A stretch of DNA of 53,530 bases from NCBI GenBank assembly GCA_018267475.1, contig JAFDYI010000026.1:1-53530 (forward strand). Direction: 5' to 3'. This document shows positions 11,268 to 41,920 of this stretch, piece by piece. Numbering within the stretch: position 1 is the first letter of the stretch; every line of letters begins with the position of its first letter. The translations under genes were made by a program, and so were the position numbers. The stretch comes from Bacteroidota bacterium. GTDB taxonomy: Bacteria; Bacteroidota; Bacteroidia; B-17B0; Aurantibacillaceae. The notes beneath the pieces are model-generated. The model was not told the DNA's origin. It made no database searches and saw only the letters and a list, made by a program, of their open reading frames with translations.

Positions 11268-13427
11268 ATGATAAAAAAAATACTACTAAGCCTGGCTGCC
11301 TTATTAACTGCATATAGCAGCAACCAAGCACAAAACCTGTGTTTTAGGCCTGCGGCAACTTATAGTGCAGGAGTGGGCCCTGTGGGCATCTGCTCGGCCG
11401 ATTTTAATGGCGATGGGCATCCTGATGTGGCAGTAGCTAATAATAATAGTAATAATGTTTCCATTTTATTAGGTTCAGCTGCAGGAACGCTTTCGGCTGC
11501 TGTGAATTACTTAGTTGGAGTATTTCCATTCGGAATATGTTCTGCTGATTTTAATGGAGATGGACACCCTGATGTAGCAGTAACTAACTCAAATGACAAT
11601 AGTGTTTCTATTTTATTAGGCTCGGCTACAGGTACGCTTTCAATATCTGGAAATTATTTAGTTGGAAGTCTTCCGGAGAAAATATGCTCTGCTGATTTTA
11701 ATAGTGATGGGCACCCTGATGTAGCGGTGGCTAACTATGGCGACAGTAGCGTTTCTATTTTATTAGGAAATGCCGTAGGTGCTTTTTCTGCCGCTGTAAG
11801 TTATACAATAGGGGCTGACCCTTATGATATCTGCTGTGCTGACTTTAATAGTGACGGGCATCCAGATGTCGCAATAACTGATGATACCCACACCTACATG
11901 TCTATTTTATTTGGATCTGCTACTGGAACTCTATCAACAGCGGTACCTAATGGTACATTCCGCTATAGGAAGATATGTTCTGCCGATTTTAACTCTGATG
12001 GGCATCCTGATGTGGCAGCACTTTATAATCCTTTAGCCCCACTTTCTATTTTATTAGGGTCTGCTACGGGCACCTTATCCGTGCAAGCGACCTATAGCCT
12101 TATTATGCCTAGCCTTATATGTTCTGCTGATTTTAACATAGATGGCCACCCGGATGTGGCGGTAACTACAGTTAACAACAATGTTTCTATTTTGTTGGGA
12201 TCTGCAACAGGCGCGCTATCTCTTCCTGAAAACTACAGATTAGGAAATGGTGCGAGTGATATTTGTTCTGCTGATTTTAACAATGATGGATACCCTGATA
12301 TAGCGGCAGCAATTTCGGATAGTATATCTATTCTATTAAGCAATCCTGTTATACCACACGCGGTTGCTAATCCGGTAATTATTTGTCAAGGAGAAAGCGC
12401 TTCTTTATATGCTTCCGGCGCAAACACCTACACGTGGAGTACCGGCGCTGCTACAGCTACTATTAGCGTTACCCCCACGGTAAGCACCACCTATAGTGTG
12501 GTGGGTACCAACACAATGGGCTGTTCCAACACGGCTACTGTAAATATAAGTGTAGTGAGCCCACCTACCCCTCAAATATGCGAGGTAACTACCGATAGCG
12601 CAAGCCACTACAACTACAATATAGTATTTTGGGAGAACACCCAATATCCCGCAGCAGATAGCTTTAAGGTATATCGCTATGATGGTTTAACCAATTCATA
12701 TATAAGGTTAGCCACCCTAAGCAAAGATAGCAGTCGTTTTGTAGATACACTACGGCATCATGGCAGCCTTAGCGGCACTAACGGAGACCCCAACAGCAGC
12801 CCTCAAAAATACGTTATTACACTAAAAGATACCTGCGGCAACGAAAGCGCCAAAAGCCCTTACCATGTTACGGAGTTTTTGCAAAACCAGTACAATGGTA
12901 ATTTTAATGTAAGCCAATATCAGATAGAGAGCAGTCAAAGCAACCCGGTAACGGGTTACGCCTTATATAGAGATAATAATAATACAGGTGTTTTTGTGCC
13001 TATAGCCATAATACCCAGCGGTGCCACCTCTGCCACAGATCCCAGCTACAGCAGCTACCCAAATGCCGCATATAGAGTAGATGTATTGGGCTTTAGCTGT
13101 ACGGTAGCGGGGCGCTATGCCAACCCCAACCAAGTACAGGCCTTAAAGCAAAAAAGCCATAGCAATTCTACCGCGCGAGTAAGCAGCGGCATTGCTTCTT
13201 ATGACAATAAAACAGGTTTTAATGTGTACCCAAACCCCGGCAGCGGTATATTTACCATTAGTGCTCAAAAAGAGTTGGGGAGCGTGGAGGTGTATAACCT
13301 GCTGAACCAGTTGGTATATAAAATAAACAGCCAGGAAAAACAGATACAGATAGACCTAAGCACTTTTGATAGTGGGGTATATTATTTGCGTAGTCAAAGT
13401 GCAGCAGCCAAATTGATAAAACAGTAA
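11268..13427 (+). CDS. VCBS/FG-GAP repeat surface protein with T9SS type A sorting domain
   Basis: 719 residues. Signal peptide (KKILLSLAALLTAYSSNQAQ), then seven tandem repeats of about 48 residues (about 30-365), each with the calcium-binding loop DFNxDGxPDVA and a following VSILLGSA(T)G strand, as in integrin-like FG-GAP/VCBS propellers. An Ig-like segment follows (about 370-430, TYTWSTGAATATISV), then a fibronectin-like stretch, and a type A sorting domain at the end (FNVYPNPGSGIFTI, VEVYNLLNQLV, LSTFDSGVYYLRS). Seven blades fit one closed propeller. Likely a cell-surface adhesin or carbohydrate-interacting protein; ligand unknown. Confidence 0.9.
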   Translation: MIKKILLSLAALLTAYSSNQAQNLCFRPAATYSAGVGPVGICSADFNGDGHPDVAVANNNSNNVSILLGSAAGTLSAAVNYLVGVFPFGICSADFNGDGHPDVAVTNSNDNSVSILLGSATGTLSISGNYLVGSLPEKICSADFNSDGHPDVAVANYGDSSVSILLGNAVGAFSAAVSYTIGADPYDICCADFNSDGHPDVAITDDTHTYMSILFGSATGTLSTAVPNGTFRYRKICSADFNSDGHPDVAALYNPLAPLSILLGSATGTLSVQATYSLIMPSLICSADFNIDGHPDVAVTTVNNNVSILLGSATGALSLPENYRLGNGASDICSADFNNDGYPDIAAAISDSISILLSNPVIPHAVANPVIICQGESASLYASGANTYTWSTGAATATISVTPTVSTTYSVVGTNTMGCSNTATVNISVVSPPTPQICEVTTDSASHYNYNIVFWENTQYPAADSFKVYRYDGLTNSYIRLATLSKDSSRFVDTLRHHGSLSGTNGDPNSSPQKYVITLKDTCGNESAKSPYHVTEFLQNQYNGNFNVSQYQIESSQSNPVTGYALYRDNNNTGVFVPIAIIPSGATSATDPSYSSYPNAAYRVDVLGFSCTVAGRYANPNQVQALKQKSHSNSTARVSSGIASYDNKTGFNVYPNPGSGIFTISAQKELGSVEVYNLLNQLVYKINSQEKQIQIDLSTFDSGVYYLRSQSAAAKLIKQ

Positions 13428-14248: not shown

Positions 14249-16237
14249 ATGCGCAGTACCTCATTCAAATATATTTTTTTTATACTAGTGGTAGTAATAA
14301 ATATATGGGCTCATGGTCAAAATATAGATTCTTTGATGCGTATAGCCGCTAAGCCCGACGCAGATAGCCTGAGCGTGTTCGCTTTAAATAGCTTAAGCAC
14401 CAAATATCTAAACGAAGGTAATTATTCCGAGGCTATTCTATACGGCAACAAAGCCATAGAGCTATCAAGAAAAATAAAAGACAAAAAAAATTTAATGAAA
14501 AGCCTTTTAAATATAGGCGTGTTGTATATAGATAAAGGAGATTATCTGGAGGCTCAAAAAAACTTATTGCAAAGCCTTACTCTATCAGAAGAATTAGGGG
14601 CTGAAAAACAAGAGGCCATTATATACAACGAGTTAGGCATTTTAAATTACTCCCTTCATAATTACGACCAAGCGATAAATTACCACACCTTATCCATAAA
14701 AATAAGTGATAAAATAAAAAACAACAAAAACAACGTATCTAACTATTTAGGGTTGGGAGATATTTTTTCAGACAAAGGCGATTTTTCTAAAGCGTTGCTT
14801 TATTACACAAAGGCGCAGCAAGTGGCAGCAAATATAGGAGATAAGGACAACGTAGCCATTGCATATAATAATATGGGTACTTTGTTTCAGAGTAATAATT
14901 TTTTTGAAAAAGCGCTAATCTATTATTTAAAAAGCGCCGAGATACACCAACAAATTGGCAACATAGAAAATGAAGCTATTAGTTATTTAAACATAGCTGC
15001 TACGTATATAAAATTAAAAAAATATCAAGAGGCTGAGGTATATTTAAAAAAAGGATATGTGCTGAGCGAGCAAATGGGTGGTAGAGAGTTTTTGCAAGAA
15101 CTATACCGGATACAGTACGGACTGGATAGCATAAAAAATGATTACAAATCGGTTTTCAAGCACTTTAAACTATACAAAATATATGGAGACAGCATTGAGA
15201 ATGCCGATGTGTCAAAAAAAATAGTACAAGAGCAAATGCAATATACCTTTGATAAAAAAGAAGCGGCAGATAAAGTAATTCGGGATAAAAAAGAGCTTCT
15301 TGATGCGCAAGAGAAAAAGAGGCAACGCCTTATTATGTGGTTTATTATAGTCGCCGGAATAGGAGCATCTATAGCCGCTTTGCTTATTTTTAGAAGCTTA
15401 CAACTCAATAAAAAGAAAAATAAAATAATCGAACTGCAAAAAACAGAGGTAGAGCAAAAAAACACGGAAATAGAGCGTAAACAAAAAGAAATAGTAGATT
15501 CTATAACTTATGCTAAACGCATACAAACATCTATCTTGCCCCCTTTAGAGGATATAAAACAGGCAATACCCAACTCTTTTATTTTATTTAAACCAAAAGA
15601 TATTGTAAGCGGAGATTTTTATTGGTTCAATAAAAAAAATAATTATTTTTTTCTTGCCGCGGCCGATTGCACAGGACACGGCGTTCCTGGTGCTTTTATG
15701 AGCATGCTTAATATGGAAAAACTTACCGAAGCATTAGAAAGCACCGATACGCCCGGAGAAATTTTGAGCTTAGTAAACATAGGTTTAAAAAAAGCGCTAC
15801 GGCAGTCGGATAAAGAAGGGGCTAGCCGAGACGGAATGGATATAGCTCTTTTAAAGATAGATACTGCATTAAACCACATACAGTATGCCGGAGCTAACAG
15901 GCCGTTGTGGCTTATAAGAAAAAATACAAATATGGTGGAGGAAACCAAAGCCACAAAAGTAGCGATTGGCGGTTTAACCGAAGATGCGCAACGTTTTGAG
16001 GAACATTCTTTTTATTTGCAAAAAGGGGATACCATTTATATATGCAGCGATGGTTATGCCGACCAGTTTGGGAAAAATGATAAAAAACTAATGACAAAAA
16101 AATTTAAAGAAGAGTTGTTGTCCATTCAGCACCTTTCTATAGAAGAACAAAAAAAACACCTAAACGATTTTATAGATGATTGGAAGCAAGGCACAGAGCA
16201 AACCGATGATATACTAGTGATAGGGTTTCGGTGCTAA
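14249..16237 (+). CDS. TPR sensor with SpoIIE/PP2C-like serine phosphatase domain
   Basis: 662 residues. Signal peptide (about 1-24), tandem TPR repeats (about 40-310; YLEAQKNLLQSLTLSEELGAE and similar), one membrane segment (about 362-382, LIMWFIIVAGIGASIAALLIF), a charged coiled coil (about 385-420), and a SpoIIE-type phosphatase domain to the end. The metal-site signatures GDFYWF, AADCTGHGVPGAF, DGMDIALL and YICSDGYADQFG are intact. The layout suggests a periplasmic TPR input driving a cytoplasmic phosphatase, as in partner-switching control. It is a distant paralogue of the pair at 37424-41920. It may be co-transcribed with the PIN pair, 19 bases upstream. Confidence 0.85.
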   Translation: MRSTSFKYIFFILVVVINIWAHGQNIDSLMRIAAKPDADSLSVFALNSLSTKYLNEGNYSEAILYGNKAIELSRKIKDKKNLMKSLLNIGVLYIDKGDYLEAQKNLLQSLTLSEELGAEKQEAIIYNELGILNYSLHNYDQAINYHTLSIKISDKIKNNKNNVSNYLGLGDIFSDKGDFSKALLYYTKAQQVAANIGDKDNVAIAYNNMGTLFQSNNFFEKALIYYLKSAEIHQQIGNIENEAISYLNIAATYIKLKKYQEAEVYLKKGYVLSEQMGGREFLQELYRIQYGLDSIKNDYKSVFKHFKLYKIYGDSIENADVSKKIVQEQMQYTFDKKEAADKVIRDKKELLDAQEKKRQRLIMWFIIVAGIGASIAALLIFRSLQLNKKKNKIIELQKTEVEQKNTEIERKQKEIVDSITYAKRIQTSILPPLEDIKQAIPNSFILFKPKDIVSGDFYWFNKKNNYFFLAAADCTGHGVPGAFMSMLNMEKLTEALESTDTPGEILSLVNIGLKKALRQSDKEGASRDGMDIALLKIDTALNHIQYAGANRPLWLIRKNTNMVEETKATKVAIGGLTEDAQRFEEHSFYLQKGDTIYICSDGYADQFGKNDKKLMTKKFKEELLSIQHLSIEEQKKHLNDFIDDWKQGTEQTDDILVIGFRC

Positions 16238-21814: not shown

Positions 21815-22897
21815 ATGGCAGGTAACACGTTTGGACATATTTTTAAATTAAGCACCTTTGGCGAATCGCATGGAGAGGCTATTGGCGGCATGATAGATGG
21901 TTGCCCCGCAGGGCTGAAGATAGACCTTACCTTTATTCAAAACGAACTAAACAGGCGCCGGCCCGGACAATCAAAGATTACTACCCAGCGTAAAGAAGAA
22001 GATAGCATACGCTTTTTGTCCGGCATTTTTGAAGGAAAAAGCACGGGAGCTCCAATCGGTTTTATTATTGAAAACAACAATCCAAAAAGCAGCGACTACC
22101 AATACATAAAAGAAGCATACCGCCCCTCGCATGCGGATTACACATACGAAAAAAAATACGGCCTGCGCGATTACAGAGGCGGCGGGCGGGCTTCGGCACG
22201 CGAAACGGCTTGTCGTGTGGTGGGCGGCGCCATAGCCAAGCTTTTGTTGCAACAACACCAAATAAAAATACACGCTTACACGGATCAAGTACACCACATA
22301 AAACTAGAACAACCTTTTAGCAACACCAACTTTGCAGAGATAGAAAAAAACGCCATTCGTTGCCCCGATAAAAAAACAGCCGAAAAAATGATAGCGCTTA
22401 TAGAAAAAGTGCGCAAAAGCGGCGATACGGTAGGCGGCGTCATTGCCTGTGTTATTCAGCAAGTACCCATAGGCTTGGGCGAGCCCGTTTTTGATAAACT
22501 ACATGCCCAGCTGGGAAAAGCCATGCTAAGCATTAATGCCGCCAAAGGTTTTGAATACGGCACCGGCTTTGACTCGGCGTACTTTACAGGCTCTGAACTA
22601 AACGATACTTTCATCAAACAGAAAGGAAAAATAAAAACAAAACATAACAACAGCGGCGGCATACAAGGCGGCATCAGCAACGGAGAAGATATTTATTTTA
22701 AAGTAGCCTTTAAGCCTGTAGCAACCCTTATGAAAGAGCAACAAACCGTAAACCACAAAGGAGAAACCGTGATACTAAAACCACAAGGCCGGCACGACCC
22801 CTGCGTACTACCACGTGCTGTACCTATAGTAGAGGCTATGGCAGCCCTTGTATTAGCCGATTTTTTATTGTTAAGCAGAACCACTTCTGTAAAATAA
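21815..22897 (+). CDS. aroC: Chorismate synthase
   Basis: 360 residues. It forms chorismate from EPSP using reduced FMN, the last step of the shikimate pathway. Signatures: [18 protein letters not shown] (phosphate-binding first His), [52 protein letters not shown] and [18 protein letters not shown]. All family positions look intact. It starts 3 bases after the porP/sprF-like gene and is probably translated from the same message. Confidence 0.96.
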
Positions 22898-22919: not shown

Positions 22920-24124
22920 TTATTTGTTTAAAACACGGGTGTATTTTGCTTTTAGCTTTAAAAAATAACGTTCGAAAAAATAGTGCAAAATACTAGCCCA
23001 AACAAGAGTGCATAAAGTTACCATACAGGGAGCCAATATATTTGCCTTGAAGCCGCCAACATTCGCATTTCCTTTTATAAAATTTCGTAGCACAAAACCA
23101 ACCATAGGTATATGTACCAAATACATAGCATAGGATACGTTACCCAAATAGCGAGTAACAGTCGGTTTTATGGTAATCATTTGTTTTTTTTGAACAGCCA
23201 CACCTACCAAATAAGCACCCAATAAGCCGCAGCTAATTAAAAAAACAGGCAAGCTGTATGAAGAAGGATGAAACCTATTAAACACATAAAAACCTCCGAA
23301 TATAAAAACCAAAATTTGTATGGTAGGAGAAAACAAAAACCCTCTTTCTTCTTTCGCTATTTTTTGAAAAAAACAGGCCATCAAGGCCCCTATTCCAAAA
23401 AAGTAAAAATAACTGGTGCTCATAAAATAAGCTGTATTGTAACCACTGGCAGAGGGTATTTTACTAAAAATAAGCCATGATAAAAAGCCCAATATGATAA
23501 ACAAAAAAGCAATACTCCGTATGTTTTTTTTGAATAAAAAAAGAAAAAAAGGAAGCAGTAAATAAATATGCTCCTCGATACAAACCGACCACAAAATAGT
23601 GTAGGTTTTGCTTACCTGCTCGCATATTAACTGGTAATTGACGCTAAAACTACACGCATACAATAGATTTGTTTTTATGGTAGAAAATGAAACGTGCTCT
23701 TTTAACGGGAAAACAATAATTCCTAAAAAAACAGCAAGAAAAAAAAGAGGCCAAATACGGATCATACGCCTCATGTAAAAATTTTTTAAATGGTAACTGC
23801 CCTTTTTTATTTCTTGAAGCAAAATAAGCGAAATGAGAAAACCGCTGATGATAAAAAACACATCTAAAAAAAAGGCACCGGAAACGGCGTGTAACCCGTT
23901 TTTTACAAACCCTTTTTTGCTAAGAGAAAGCCAGGTGTGATGAAAAATAACACCGGTAGCACAAATAAAACGCAAGGTATCAAGCCCCGGAAAATATCCT
24001 ACCGAGTTGGCTTGTAGTGTTGGTCGCTGGTTCGCTGGTTCGCTGGTTCGCTGGTTCGCTGGTTCGCTGGTTCGCTGGTTCGCTGGTTCGCTGGTTCGCT
24101 GGTTCGCTGGTTCGCTGGTTTCAT
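22920..24124 (-). CDS. Acyltransferase-3 family O-acyltransferase, predicted phase-variable and out of frame here
   Basis: The body (TTG 23975 to 22920) encodes a multi-pass acyltransferase-3 protein: catalytic-type His in GVIFHHTWLS, AFFLDVFFIISGFLISLIL, FYMRRMIRIWPLFFLAVFLG, SVCIEEHIYLLLPFFLFLF, SYAMYLVHIPMVGFVL, about ten membrane helices. The family's real N-terminus (YFPGLDTLRF) lies upstream of 23975 in frame, but no ATG, GTG or TTG precedes it in that frame before a TAA at 24128-24126. The only ATG (24124) reads into 12 copies of an 8-bp repeat and leaves them in the wrong frame, ending at TAG 24001-23999 after 41 codons. Eleven copies would give 398 residues. Likely acylates a surface polysaccharide. 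Confidence 0.8.
24025..24120. repeat. 12 perfect tandem copies of CGCTGGTT inside an acyltransferase 5' end
   Basis: 96 bases of an unbroken 8-bp unit (AACCAGCG on the coding, minus strand), with a degenerate edge (TGGT) at 24021-24024. The unit has no stop codon in any frame and encodes an eight-residue period PANQRTSE. No spacers, so not CRISPR. Unit length not divisible by 3 makes copy-number change a frame switch. Confidence 0.97.
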
Positions 24125-24134
24125 ATTAAAAAAT

Positions 24135-24142
24135 CAAAGTTA
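24135..24142 (-). promoter_or_regulatory. -7 box TAACTTTG (minus) ahead of the repeat-bearing acyltransferase
   Basis: Exact TAnnTTTG match ending 10 bases before the ATG at 24124, so transcription would start a few bases before the start codon. It supports 24124 as the true start. No good -33 element. Confidence 0.55.
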
Positions 24143-24202: not shown

Positions 24203-24724
24203 ATGGATATTCTTTTAGAAATTTTAAAGCTGTTAATTCCTTCGGGGGCTGTATTTGCCGCTACTTATTTTATCATCAAAAAATTTAGCGACAGCGAACA
24301 AAAAAGGCGCGATTACGAACTACGAAAAGCCATGCTAAGCATGACCACCCCCATTCGCCTGCAAGCCTACGAGCGTATTATCATTTTTTTAGAACGCATA
24401 GAGCCTACCACCTTAGTACTACGTACCAACAAAGCAGGCATGAACGCCCCCATGCTTTATACGGAACTTATAAAAGCCGTAAAAACAGAATACGAACACA
24501 ACATATCGCAACAAATATATGTAAGCGCCAACGCCTGGCACTTGGTAAAAACAGCTAAAGAAGAAACCCTAAAGCTCATCAATATATCCATATCCAAAGT
24601 ACCTGATAATGCTAAAGCGCAAGACCTGGCGCAAATTATTTTACAGATAGCATCGGGCGTAGAAAAAACACCCACCCAAATTTCCATCGATTTTTTGAAA
24701 AAAGAAGTAGCCCAGCATTTTTAA
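24203..24724 (+). CDS. Small membrane-anchored protein upstream of mutA
   Basis: 173 residues. An N-terminal hydrophobic helix (about 5-25, ILKLLIPSGAVFAATYFII) anchors a helical, charged domain with YELRKAMLSMTTPIRLQAYERIIIFLERI. I recognise this as a Bacteroidota protein often found directly before methylmalonyl-CoA mutase, but know no function. It ends 3 bases before mutA and is surely co-transcribed with it. Possibly a coiled-coil scaffold; no catalytic residues are apparent. Confidence 0.65.
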   Translation: MDILLEILKLLIPSGAVFAATYFIIKKFSDSEQKRRDYELRKAMLSMTTPIRLQAYERIIIFLERIEPTTLVLRTNKAGMNAPMLYTELIKAVKTEYEHNISQQIYVSANAWHLVKTAKEETLKLINISISKVPDNAKAQDLAQIILQIASGVEKTPTQISIDFLKKEVAQHF

Positions 24725-37423: not shown

Positions 37424-37522
37424 ATGATAAAAAAACTATTCCTCTTTGCAATCACCGGTTTGTTGTTTTTTTGCGCTAAGGCGCAAAGCAAAAAAATAGA
37501 CTCGTTGCTTAATGTAATTAAA
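37424..37522 (+). repeat. 99-bp near-identical 5' segment, copy 1
   Basis: Matches 39674-39772 with a single mismatch (signal peptide plus KKIDSLLNVIK). Synonymous sites are conserved too, which protein-level selection does not explain. Confidence 0.9.
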
Positions 37523-39664
37523 ACATCTAAAGAGGATAGCGTGCGTTTTAGCGCCTATTTTGAATTAGGCGTTCATTTTCAAGGAAACAATCCTGACACA
37601 GCTCTTTATTTTCATGCAAAAGCATTAGATGAAGCAAAAAAAATACCCGGAGCAGAAGGGGCATTAAAAAAAGCAGAAGCCATTTCAAGAATAGGGGTTG
37701 ACTATTATTTTAAAGGAAATCTTAATCGGGCTATGAGTATTTACCAGTCGTCGCTTCGCACTGTTGAGAAATTTCTTTTAGATAAAAGAAAAAATACGCA
37801 AGAAAAAGCCCAGCGATTACAAGCTAAAATATTGGGATATATGGGCGTTATACACAATTCACAAGGGGAGTATTTAAAAGCGCTGGATTGTTATTCAAAG
37901 GCTTTAAAAGTTCACGAGTATTTTTTCGATTTAAGAATGCAAGCCATCAGTCTGAACAATATGGGCAATGTGTATTCTAATAAAGGCGAATACTCTAATG
38001 CTTTAGATTGTTATTTTAAAGCATTACAACTACATGAAAAATTAAATTTAAAAGAAAGTCAAGCTATTGATTTAGGAAATATAGGTACGGTATATTCGGC
38101 TCAAAAAAACGATACAAAAGCAATTGCATATTATACAAAGGCGCTTAAAATAAATGAAGAAACAGAGAACAAAAAAGGACAAGCCGCTAATTTGCATAAT
38201 ATTGGCAACGTATGTGCACGTCAAAAAAATTACAAGAAGGCATTGGCGTATTACGAAAAAACATTATCTATAAACGAAGAAACAGGAGATCAGCAAAATT
38301 GGGCTAATACTATCGAGTCTATGGGATTGATGTATTATGAAGATGGAGAATATGAAAAGGCATTAGATTGCTTTTTCAAATCATTACATATAAACGAACA
38401 AATAGAAGAAAAAAAAGCGCAAGCATCAAATTTTGGAAATATTGGCGATACTTATATGAAACAGAAAAAATATAAAGAAGCCGAAAAGTGTTTAACCAAA
38501 GCTATACAAATTGGAAATGAGTTGAGCACAATAGATCAATTAACAAGCTCGTACGAATCTTTGTCTAACCTTTATAGCTGCATGCATCGCCATCAAGAAG
38601 CTCTTGATATGTACAAAAAATATATCTCCTGTCGCGATAGCGTGCTTAGCCAAAAAAACAGAAAGGCATCAATAGCGAAAGAGATGCAATATAACTATGA
38701 CAAAGCACAAGAAGCACAAAAAGTGGAGCAAACTATAAAAGACACTAAAAATTTTAATGAAAAACGCAGGCAACAACTTATGATATACGCCATCGCCGGC
38801 TTTTCTGTTTTACTGATAGCATTGGCTTTGGCGGTTTCAAAAAACTTAGCCATTAGTAAAAAAAGAAATCGTATTATCAGCTTACAAAAACGCTTAGTAG
38901 AAGAAAAAAACAAAGAAATAACGGATAGTATTACCTACGCCAAGCGCATACAAAACGCCATATTACCCAATGTAAAAAAATGGCACGCACTGCTGCCTAA
39001 TAGTTTTGTGCTATACCAACCCAAAGATATAGTAGCCGGCGATTTTTATTGGTTAGAAGAAACAGACCACTATATATACATAGCCGTAGCCGATTGTACC
39101 GGGCATGGTGTGCCGGGTGCTATGGTTAGCGTAGTATGCAGCAGCGCGCTTAGCAAAGCCCTGTTAGAAGAAAAACAAACCGACACCAACACCTTGTTGG
39201 ATAAAACACGGAGTATTGTTTTGGAACAGCTCAGCAAAAGCGAAGAAAACATACGCGATGGTATGGATATTTGCTTAATACGGATAAACAAAAACAATAA
39301 AAAAGAAATTCAGTATAGCGGCGCAAACCGCCCCTTGTACATAGTAAACGCCCTCCAAGAACTGCAAGAAATAAAGCCCAACAAACAACCTATTGGCCAA
39401 TACGATGAAGAAAAACCTTTTGATAAACACGATATGGTGTTAAACGAAAAAGATACGCTGTATTTATTTAGCGATGGCTACGCCGACCAATTCGGCGGCC
39501 CTAAAAACAAGAAACTAAGTACCAAAAAACTAAAAGAAACCTTGCAAGAAGCCAGCACCATGGACTTGACAAAGCAAAAAGAATTTTTGCAACACTTTTT
39601 TGCCGACTACAAAGGCATATACGAGCAGGTGGACGATGTGTGTGTGATAGGGTTAAAAGCATAA
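37424..39664 (+). CDS. TPR sensor with SpoIIE-like phosphatase, tandem copy 1
   Basis: 746 residues. Signal peptide (KKLFLFAITGLLFFCAKAQ), TPR repeats (about 35-410; YSNALDCYFKALQLHEKLNLKE and similar), one membrane helix (about 450-467, LMIYAIAGFSVLLIALAL), a short coiled coil, then the phosphatase domain (about 500-746) with GDFYWL, VADCTGHGVPGAM, DGMDICLI and FSDGYADQFGG. Architecture matches the gene at 14249. Separated by only 9 bases from the next paralogue, with which it shares a nearly identical first 99 bases and a nearly identical 186-base block near the end. Confidence 0.87.
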   Translation: MIKKLFLFAITGLLFFCAKAQSKKIDSLLNVIKTSKEDSVRFSAYFELGVHFQGNNPDTALYFHAKALDEAKKIPGAEGALKKAEAISRIGVDYYFKGNLNRAMSIYQSSLRTVEKFLLDKRKNTQEKAQRLQAKILGYMGVIHNSQGEYLKALDCYSKALKVHEYFFDLRMQAISLNNMGNVYSNKGEYSNALDCYFKALQLHEKLNLKESQAIDLGNIGTVYSAQKNDTKAIAYYTKALKINEETENKKGQAANLHNIGNVCARQKNYKKALAYYEKTLSINEETGDQQNWANTIESMGLMYYEDGEYEKALDCFFKSLHINEQIEEKKAQASNFGNIGDTYMKQKKYKEAEKCLTKAIQIGNELSTIDQLTSSYESLSNLYSCMHRHQEALDMYKKYISCRDSVLSQKNRKASIAKEMQYNYDKAQEAQKVEQTIKDTKNFNEKRRQQLMIYAIAGFSVLLIALALAVSKNLAISKKRNRIISLQKRLVEEKNKEITDSITYAKRIQNAILPNVKKWHALLPNSFVLYQPKDIVAGDFYWLEETDHYIYIAVADCTGHGVPGAMVSVVCSSALSKALLEEKQTDTNTLLDKTRSIVLEQLSKSEENIRDGMDICLIRINKNNKKEIQYSGANRPLYIVNALQELQEIKPNKQPIGQYDEEKPFDKHDMVLNEKDTLYLFSDGYADQFGGPKNKKLSTKKLKETLQEASTMDLTKQKEFLQHFFADYKGIYEQVDDVCVIGLKA
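39461..39646 (+). repeat. 186-bp near-identical 3' segment, copy 1
   Basis: Matches 41717-41902 with two visible mismatches, both in third positions (TTG/CTG is also a first-position synonymous change). Covers FSDGYADQFGG to the QVDDVCV end of the phosphatase domain. Confidence 0.9.
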
Positions 39665-39673
39665 AAATAAAAT

Positions 39674-39772
39674 ATGATAAAAAAACTATTCCTCTTTGCA
39701 ATCACCGGTTTATTGTTTTTTTGCGCTAAGGCGCAAAGCAAAAAAATAGACTCGTTGCTTAATGTAATTAAA
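39674..39772 (+). repeat. 99-bp near-identical 5' segment, copy 2
   Basis: Partner of 37424-37522; divergence begins abruptly after the shared AATGTAATTAAA. Confidence 0.9.
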
Positions 39773-41920
39773 GTAATAAAAAACGATACCGCGCTTTATA
39801 GCGCTTACGTAGAACTTGGAAACAAACTTAGAGCCAACAATCCGGATACGGCGCTTTATTTTCATACACAGGCAAAAAAAATAGCCAATAAAACCCAAGG
39901 AGTTCAGGGCTTCCTAAAAGAATCAGATGTGTTGTGGAGAATAGCCGCCGATTATTTTTTTAAAGGCGATGTGGAGCAATCGTTAAAATCATATCAAGAA
40001 TCACTTGATTTAGTAAAACCTTTTTTTAACGATAAAGATACCGCTATACAAAAAAAAGCAAAAACCATACAAGTAAAAGCCTTAGGAGGCCTGGCAAACA
40101 ATTACTACACACAAAGAAATTACCCAAAAGCATTAGAATTTTATTTTAAAACATTACAAATTGCTCAGGATATAGGAAATAAAAAAACACAAGCCATCAA
40201 CCTTGGCAATATAGGCTTAGTGTATGCCAGCCAAGGAAGCTTTTCGCAATCGCTGGAGTACCATTTCAAATCTTTGAAGATAAATGAAGAAATACAAGAT
40301 AAATTAGGGCAAGCTAAAAACTTAGGGAATATAGGAAGCGTTTATTACCGCCAAAATGAATACGAAAAAGCATTAACGTACTATTTAAAAACCTTAAAAA
40401 TAAGTGAAGAAATAGAAAACATACCCAGCCAAATGGAAGACCTGCATAATATCGGCACGGTTTATTTCGACCAAAAAAAATACGCCCCGGCACTGCTGTA
40501 TTTTGTAAGGGCATTAAAAATAAGTGTTGAAACAAAAAACGAATCCAACCAACTTAGTAATTTGTGCAATATAGGCAACGTATATTTTGCCCAAAAGCAG
40601 TACCAAAATGCTCTTCCTTATTACGAAAAAGCATTAAAAATGAGCGAAGAAATACAAGACGAAACCAATGAAGCCATTAGCCTTTCCAACTTAGGGGCTG
40701 TGTATCTCAACCAAAATAAATACGCACAAGCAGAAACCTATTTAAAAAAAGCCGTACAAATAGGAGAGAAATTGAAAACAATATACTCTTTAAGCGATTT
40801 TTATGAGCACCTTTTTGAACTTTATACACGCACCCACCGCTACCCAGATGCCCTTGAAGCCTACAAAAAACACATAGCCTGCCGCGATAGCATACTAAGC
40901 GAAGAAAACCAAAAAGCATTAGTAGTTAAAGAAATGCAATACAACTACAATAAGGAAGAAGAAAAACAAAGAGCCGAGCAACTTATAAAAGATACTCAGA
41001 ACAATAACGAGAAGCACCAGCAGCGCCTAACAATATACGTTGTAATCTGTTTTTCCGTTTTTTTATTGATAGTAGTTTTAGTTATTTTAAAAAACCTGCG
41101 CATCAGTAAAAAGAAAAGCCACATCATAAACCTGCAAAAGCGAGAAGTAGAACGGCAAAAACACTTAGTAGAAGAAAAAAACAAAGATATAACCGATAGC
41201 ATTAACTACGCGAAGCATTTGCAAGAAAGCATTTTGCCCGATATAGAAGAAATAAACCAATACGCAGCCAACTTTGTGCTGTATCAACCCAAAGATATAG
41301 TAGCCGGCGATTTTTATTTTTTTAGAAACCTAAGTCCTTATGAATATCTTATAGCCGTAGCCGACTGCACCGGACATGGGGTGCCGGGTGCCCTTACCTC
41401 AGTAGTATGCTCTCAAAAACTGCATGAGGTTATAGACAAAGGCATTACCCAACCCGCCCACATACTTACCGAAGTAAACAAAGAGGTAAAAAAAGTATTT
41501 CGTAAAAAGCTAAACGATGGTATGGATATAACCCTTCTAAAAATAAATACCCAAACCAACAGCCTCTTTTTTGCCGGAGCCAACCGCCCGCTGGTAACGG
41601 TTTACCAACAAGAGCTAATCGAATACAAAGGAGTAAAATCAGCTATAGGGCATAGCTCGCTTAGCGATGAGGCTTTTACCCAACAAGAGCTTAGCTTAGC
41701 ACCGGGCACCATGCTGTATTTATTTAGCGATGGCTACGCCGACCAATTCGGCGGCCCTAAAAACAAGAAACTAAGTACCAAAAAACTAAAAGAAACCCTG
41801 CAAGAAGCCAGCACGATGGACTTGACAAAGCAAAAAGAATTTTTGCAACACTTTTTTGCCGACTACAAAGGCATATACGAGCAGGTGGACGATGTGTGTG
41901 TGGTAGGAATAAGGGTGTAA
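39674..41920 (+). CDS. TPR sensor with SpoIIE-like phosphatase, tandem copy 2
   Basis: 748 residues, same plan as copy 1: signal peptide, TPR repeats (about 35-410), membrane helix (about 452-472, IYVVICFSVFLLIVVLVIL), coiled coil, phosphatase domain with GDFYFF, VADCTGHGVPGAL, DGMDITLL and FSDGYADQFGG. The middle of the protein has diverged from copy 1, including the TPRs that would read the signal, while the ends are almost identical. The two may report different inputs to one target. Confidence 0.87.
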   Translation: MIKKLFLFAITGLLFFCAKAQSKKIDSLLNVIKVIKNDTALYSAYVELGNKLRANNPDTALYFHTQAKKIANKTQGVQGFLKESDVLWRIAADYFFKGDVEQSLKSYQESLDLVKPFFNDKDTAIQKKAKTIQVKALGGLANNYYTQRNYPKALEFYFKTLQIAQDIGNKKTQAINLGNIGLVYASQGSFSQSLEYHFKSLKINEEIQDKLGQAKNLGNIGSVYYRQNEYEKALTYYLKTLKISEEIENIPSQMEDLHNIGTVYFDQKKYAPALLYFVRALKISVETKNESNQLSNLCNIGNVYFAQKQYQNALPYYEKALKMSEEIQDETNEAISLSNLGAVYLNQNKYAQAETYLKKAVQIGEKLKTIYSLSDFYEHLFELYTRTHRYPDALEAYKKHIACRDSILSEENQKALVVKEMQYNYNKEEEKQRAEQLIKDTQNNNEKHQQRLTIYVVICFSVFLLIVVLVILKNLRISKKKSHIINLQKREVERQKHLVEEKNKDITDSINYAKHLQESILPDIEEINQYAANFVLYQPKDIVAGDFYFFRNLSPYEYLIAVADCTGHGVPGALTSVVCSQKLHEVIDKGITQPAHILTEVNKEVKKVFRKKLNDGMDITLLKINTQTNSLFFAGANRPLVTVYQQELIEYKGVKSAIGHSSLSDEAFTQQELSLAPGTMLYLFSDGYADQFGGPKNKKLSTKKLKETLQEASTMDLTKQKEFLQHFFADYKGIYEQVDDVCVVGIRV
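41717..41902 (+). repeat. 186-bp near-identical 3' segment, copy 2
   Basis: Partner of 39461-39646. The last few codons after the segment diverge again. Confidence 0.9.

Follow-up and report, generated by a model that had tools for sequence, protein, structure and literature searches.

A candidate slipped-strand phase-variable acyltransferase gene, probably horizontally acquired and captured OFF, in an uncultured Bacteroidota lineage

Introduction

Why would an apparently intact acyltransferase gene be separated from its start codon by a perfect octanucleotide array that leaves the two in different reading frames? This question is raised by one locus in the window, the whole stretch of 53,530 nucleotides of Bacteroidota DNA analysed here. 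Contingency loci that switch a reading frame are known mostly from host-adapted Proteobacteria, and the best-known switches of Bacteroidota are invertible promoters. Our literature search for a repeat-switched acyltransferase in Bacteroidota found none. A sequence-only reading of the locus had proposed a slippage switch, and our follow-up leads us to regard it as probable that this is a horizontally acquired, single-gene, slipped-strand phase-variable locus that was captured OFF.

Results

Layout of the locus

The features of the gene, all on the minus strand, are given here from 5′ to 3′ in the direction of the gene.

24135-24142, minus: -7 box TAACTTTG, which fits TAnnTTTG, the Bacteroidota -7 box, perfectly and lies 10 nt 5′ of the ATG
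24126-24128, minus: upstream in-frame stop TAA, closing the acyltransferase frame before the repeat according to the sequence and frame simulation
24122-24124, minus: start codon ATG, not in frame with the body when there are 12 units, and placed like the starts of the orthologs
23999-24124, minus: open reading frame of the OFF phase at 12 units, a 41-residue peptide ending at TAG 24001-23999
24024-24120, minus: octanucleotide array of AACCAGCG, 12.1 perfect copies, stop-free in all three frames
22920-24023, minus: acyltransferase-3 body, YFPGLDTLRF ... KLKAKYTRVLNK, intact as judged from PF01757, the orthologs and the structural model
23973-23975, minus: TTG, the first standard start codon of the body frame, inside the first transmembrane helix and past the conserved YFPGLDT

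TRF places the array at 24024-24120 with a period of 8, 12.1 copies, 100% matches and a score of 194, and a single base separates the ATG from the first AACCAGCG unit. Between start codon and body there is a pure tandem array whose unit is not divisible by three. Since 8 and 3 are coprime, every frame of the array encodes the same octapeptide cycle, NQRTSEPA. All 12 of the 12 units are identical, which points to recent turnover of the array. The number 12 itself was read from a single assembly of the only genome sampled for this species. The sequence, TRF and the translations confirmed the positions reported by the sequence-only reading for the ATG, the TAA (24128-24126), the TAG (24001-23999) and the end of the gene (22920).

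Copy number and reading frame

In frame simulations, the ATG is joined to the body at 2, 5, 8, 11, 14 and 17 units, i.e. at n = 2 mod 3, and the intact body is therefore in frame at some copy numbers. The product has 398 residues at 11 units and 406 residues at 14 units, while 12 units (41 residues) and 13 units (50 residues) are OFF; the earlier reading had reached the same phases, and the same lengths at 11 and 14 units, by counting bases, and its premise that 12 perfect units put the ATG out of frame with the acyltransferase is borne out by TRF, translation and simulation alike. At two units, the N-terminal tail would have about the length seen in orthologs. The earlier reading had also described the acyltransferase frame as open through the repeat and devoid of a start before the TAA, which holds for near-cognate starts as well, as we found no ATG, GTG, TTG, CTG, ATT, ATC or ATA in that frame before the conserved YFPGLD motif.

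Neither the open repeat nor the OFF state is diagnostic by itself. An octamer is stop-free by chance in 53–78% of cases, so an open repeat alone is no sign of selection. A random number of units leaves the gene OFF in two cases out of three, and simple breakage would equally produce the OFF state; a single OFF genome is the outcome two times in three for a switching locus and is also what a broken gene would give.

Start codon and promoter-type box

Two independent lines of evidence, box statistics and the starts of orthologs, indicate that the ATG at 24124-24122 is the genuine start, and they uphold its earlier assignment beside a -7 box. Across 752 long open reading frames from the sampled genome, with the expectation taken from the 50–144 nt background, TAnnTTTG occurred 0–29 nt upstream of the ATG 176 times against 25.6 expected (6.9-fold enrichment), and within 14 nt of the ATG 86 times against 12.8 expected. 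This enrichment shows that short leaders are common in this organism, and the layout at 24142-24124 is typical of it. The orthologs (L010/L040, L011/L044, L039, L041, L042 and L043/L191) start 10–13 residues before the GYF-G-D motif, and none of them carries a repeat at its N-terminus, so the array occupies precisely the place of a short N-terminus.

The acyltransferase body

The body matches Pfam Acyl_transf_3 (PF01757) with an E-value of 9.2e-30 and 104 bits against a cut-off of 31, covering positions 2–324 of the 326 of the profile. An R/K-X10-H motif in transmembrane helix 1 is characteristic of acyltransferase-3 (AT3) proteins (PMC9558356); here it is kept as R52 and H63, both invariant in the orthologs, within a helix at 46–70. 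The YF-G-D motif (here YFPGLD) is likewise conserved in all orthologs. At positions where the orthologs do not vary, the body differs in 8–11% of cases, and each ortholog put through the same test differs in 0–13%, meaning that there is no excess of change at conserved sites; the 368 codons of the body also contain no further lesion. These comparisons indicate that the body is an intact AT3 enzyme and is not decaying.

AlphaFold2 predicts a helical membrane body at moderate confidence (mean pLDDT 67.9), preceded by disordered residues 1–43 (pLDDT about 30), and the predicted disorder of the tail suggests that changes in its length could be tolerated. A plain Foldseek search of the model against the PDB gave no significant match. 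A second structural comparison returned two membrane acyltransferases as best matches, HGSNAT (Z 15.6 over 295 residues, 12% identity) and GWT1 (Z 10.5). On this scale helical models may reach 14 by chance, but the two scores clearly exceed those of unrelated structures (at most 7.5). HGSNAT, the human lysosomal acetyltransferase, uses cytosolic acyl-CoA to acylate a sugar on the other side of the membrane; it is alike in the fold of the membrane body, but it has no repeat tail and comes from another organism with another substrate. By analogy with the AT3 family, the enzyme would acylate an extracytoplasmic glycan or another envelope acceptor, and family membership is likewise what would suggest a role in surface polysaccharide, antigen or phage-receptor modification. 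No glycan cluster lies beside the gene or its orthologs.

Insertion and origin

The gene sits between two genes on the opposite strand.

21815-22897, plus: aroC (chorismate synthase), flanking the insertion on the left
24203-24724, plus: DUF7935 gene, flanking the insertion on the right and transcribed divergently from the acyltransferase gene

In the genus mates G005 (L202) and G004 (L203), aroC and the DUF7935 gene are neighbours, about 70 bp apart, and no acyltransferase gene lies between them, so comparison of the two arrangements identifies the gene as an insertion between aroC and DUF7935. The gene and its orthologs, which are 47–52% identical to the body, are rare and scattered; counting the present genome, they occur in 4 of 87 genomes of the family and in 2 of 395 of the class, and the orthologs adjoin unrelated genes. 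The gene has 34.6% GC against 39–45% in its neighbours. Given the insertion, the AT-richness and the rare, scattered orthologs, we regard it as an orphan gene, most likely acquired horizontally.

Rarity of the array

We scanned 1.27 Mb, 46% of the genome, for perfect arrays of at least four copies of 4–20 bp units with a length not divisible by three. Only two were found, the AACCAGCG array and one 7-bp array, and the former is the sole one in this sample that precedes a gene body. Tandem AACCAGCG was absent from the rest of this genome, from 86 other family genomes and from the viral contigs searched. Among other acyltransferase genes, from the loci of relatives and from viral contigs, there was no array with a unit outside the multiples of three, the only array being an in-frame 6-bp one (L017). 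The scan indicates that the AACCAGCG array is not a chance occurrence. Since no other array precedes a gene body in the sampled 46%, the genome appears to be without many contingency loci, and this is a single locus, unlike the large set in Haemophilus.

The second array, ACCGCAG in 11.9 copies (L171:19593-19675, identical to C11:54943-55025 of the same genome), begins 22 nt past the start of an ATG open reading frame (19571) with a TATCTTTG (TAnnTTTG) box just upstream. Its copy number would alter a short reading frame, from 37 to about 111 residues. No convincing gene body follows it in any frame, and it precedes no long open reading frame, so such arrays also arise outside genes in this genome. 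The stretch upstream of it is similar to one near L171:17946.

Two contigs of the assembly start within tandem repeats, C14 with CCAATC in 3.8 copies (L138:1-23) and C17 with an 18-bp unit in 11 copies (L141:1-198). Judging from these starts, breaks in the assembly may conceal longer arrays.

Switching and its alternatives

Three features speak for switching: the array is pure, it lies directly after the start codon, and the body is intact. In the mechanism that we propose, the TAnnTTTG box would serve as the gene's own promoter, translation would begin with the ATG at 24124, and replication slippage in the 8-bp array just after this ATG would add or remove units, with one in three copy numbers (n = 2 mod 3) linking the ATG to the acyltransferase body. 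The 12-unit allele would yield the 41-residue peptide and no enzyme (OFF), while the loss of one unit or the gain of two would yield the full transmembrane acyltransferase (ON), with a disordered NQRTSEPA-repeat tail that would itself vary in length. ON cells would then transfer acyl groups to an extracytoplasmic glycan or to another acceptor in the envelope. Slippage in vivo, alternation of expression, substrate and benefit are what we infer from this anatomy.

The main competing explanation is that neutral expansion of the repeat just broke a newly acquired gene that is on its way to loss, with reversion possible and unselected. It would fit a gene that is inserted relative to genus mates, rare in the class and AT-richer than its neighbours, and it would fit the location of the ACCGCAG array in non-coding-like DNA of the same genome. 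Short-unit arrays also occur in the intergenic DNA of some Bacteroidota (PMC4679880). Against it, the 368 codons contain no other lesion and their conserved sites no excess of changes, and the array lies just past the ATG, the sole place that would tolerate changes in length in the ON phases, as in neuO (see below). We therefore consider neutral breakage unlikely.

A second explanation places the fault in the assembly, with a true allele of 11 or 14 units and a gene that is ON with a repetitive tail, varying or not. Short-read assemblers often mis-set the copy number of tandem arrays, and this assembly has N-filled gaps as well as the two contigs that start within repeats. However, at 97 bp the array would fit within a common short read, the contig crosses it without a break or an N, and all 12 units are identical, which together make a miscount quite improbable.

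Production of the enzyme by the 12-unit allele, through a different start codon or through recoding, with the repeat being no switch at all, is very improbable. The TTG at 23975, which lies shortly 3′ of the OFF stop and would give a product retaining R-X10-H, would cost the protein the YFPGLDT that contains the motif of all orthologs and would begin inside helix 1. The overlap of the frames has neither a near-cognate start nor a slippery heptamer (X XXY YYZ) to promote ribosomal frameshifting, and the repeat RNA has no unusual fold (z -0.53). For want of an unusual fold, we also rejected the idea that the repeat RNA acts as an attenuator.

Comparison with known systems

Returning to slipped-strand switching, the frame-switching anatomy put forward by the sequence-only reading stands on the start-site, ortholog and frame evidence. 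The comparison it drew, with Haemophilus and Neisseria, does not fit as well, since the design that comes nearest is that of neuO and not that of their tetranucleotide loci. neuO of Escherichia coli K1 encodes a polysialic acid O-acetyltransferase on prophage CUS-3, with a 7-bp array two bases after the ATG, three units of which encode one heptad of a disordered tail; every third copy number is ON, and in a set of 64 genomes 65.6% were OFF (PMC3046976, PMC13001214). Both are acyltransferase genes from outside with an array of units not divisible by three, 1–2 nt past the ATG, in which three units make one peptide repeat, one in three copy numbers is ON and the tail is disordered and variable. 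They differ in the unit (7-bp AAGACTC against the 8-bp AACCAGCG) and in the fold, NeuO being a left-handed beta-helix and the present enzyme a membrane AT3 protein; neuO is also prophage-borne, and its switching is proven. Membership of the NeuO family is ruled out, because the present protein is an all-helical membrane AT3 enzyme with an NQRTSEPA repeat rather than a hexapeptide beta-helix with RLKTQDS.

Two loci of H. influenzae share other features. Like the present gene, oafA codes for an AT3 acyltransferase and has a simple sequence repeat in its coding region, with GCAA as the unit, and it is phase-variable (PMC2651432, PMC9558356); it differs in that its tetranucleotide lies mid-gene, in its known acetylation of heptose III of the lipooligosaccharide, and in belonging to a proteobacterial pathogen. 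The octanucleotide repeats of hmw1A and hmw2A, for which phase variation has been proposed, are alike in their 8-bp unit and 12–15 copies (PMC2651432), but they lie 200–213 nt upstream of the gene and would thus be a promoter-type switch, not a reading-frame switch.

The locus is of moderate interest for its lineage, for an evolutionary before/after comparison and for its convergence with neuO: a known pathogen trick would here be at work on a recently acquired gene of an environmental-type, uncultured Bacteroidota lineage. Orthologs that lack the array and genus mates that lack the gene supply the two sides of the comparison, which makes the birth of a contingency locus, convergent with neuO, directly testable. 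A fuller reading is possible but doubtful, namely that this is a working reading-frame contingency locus whose tail acts both as an on/off switch and as a NeuO-like, length-dependent tuner of activity, and that it evolved after acquisition, independently of the proteobacterial cases.

Other features of the window

A pair of genes for an Xre/MbcA/ParS antitoxin and a RES-domain toxin (PF09722, PF08808; 26767-27751) lies a few genes from the acyltransferase gene. The window also encodes three TPR-SpoIIE phosphatase proteins (37424-41920 and 14249-16237), two of them in tandem, and an FG-GAP repeat protein with a type IX secretion tail (11268-13427), whose gene contains an in-frame 147-bp tandem repeat of 2.6 copies (11391-11767).
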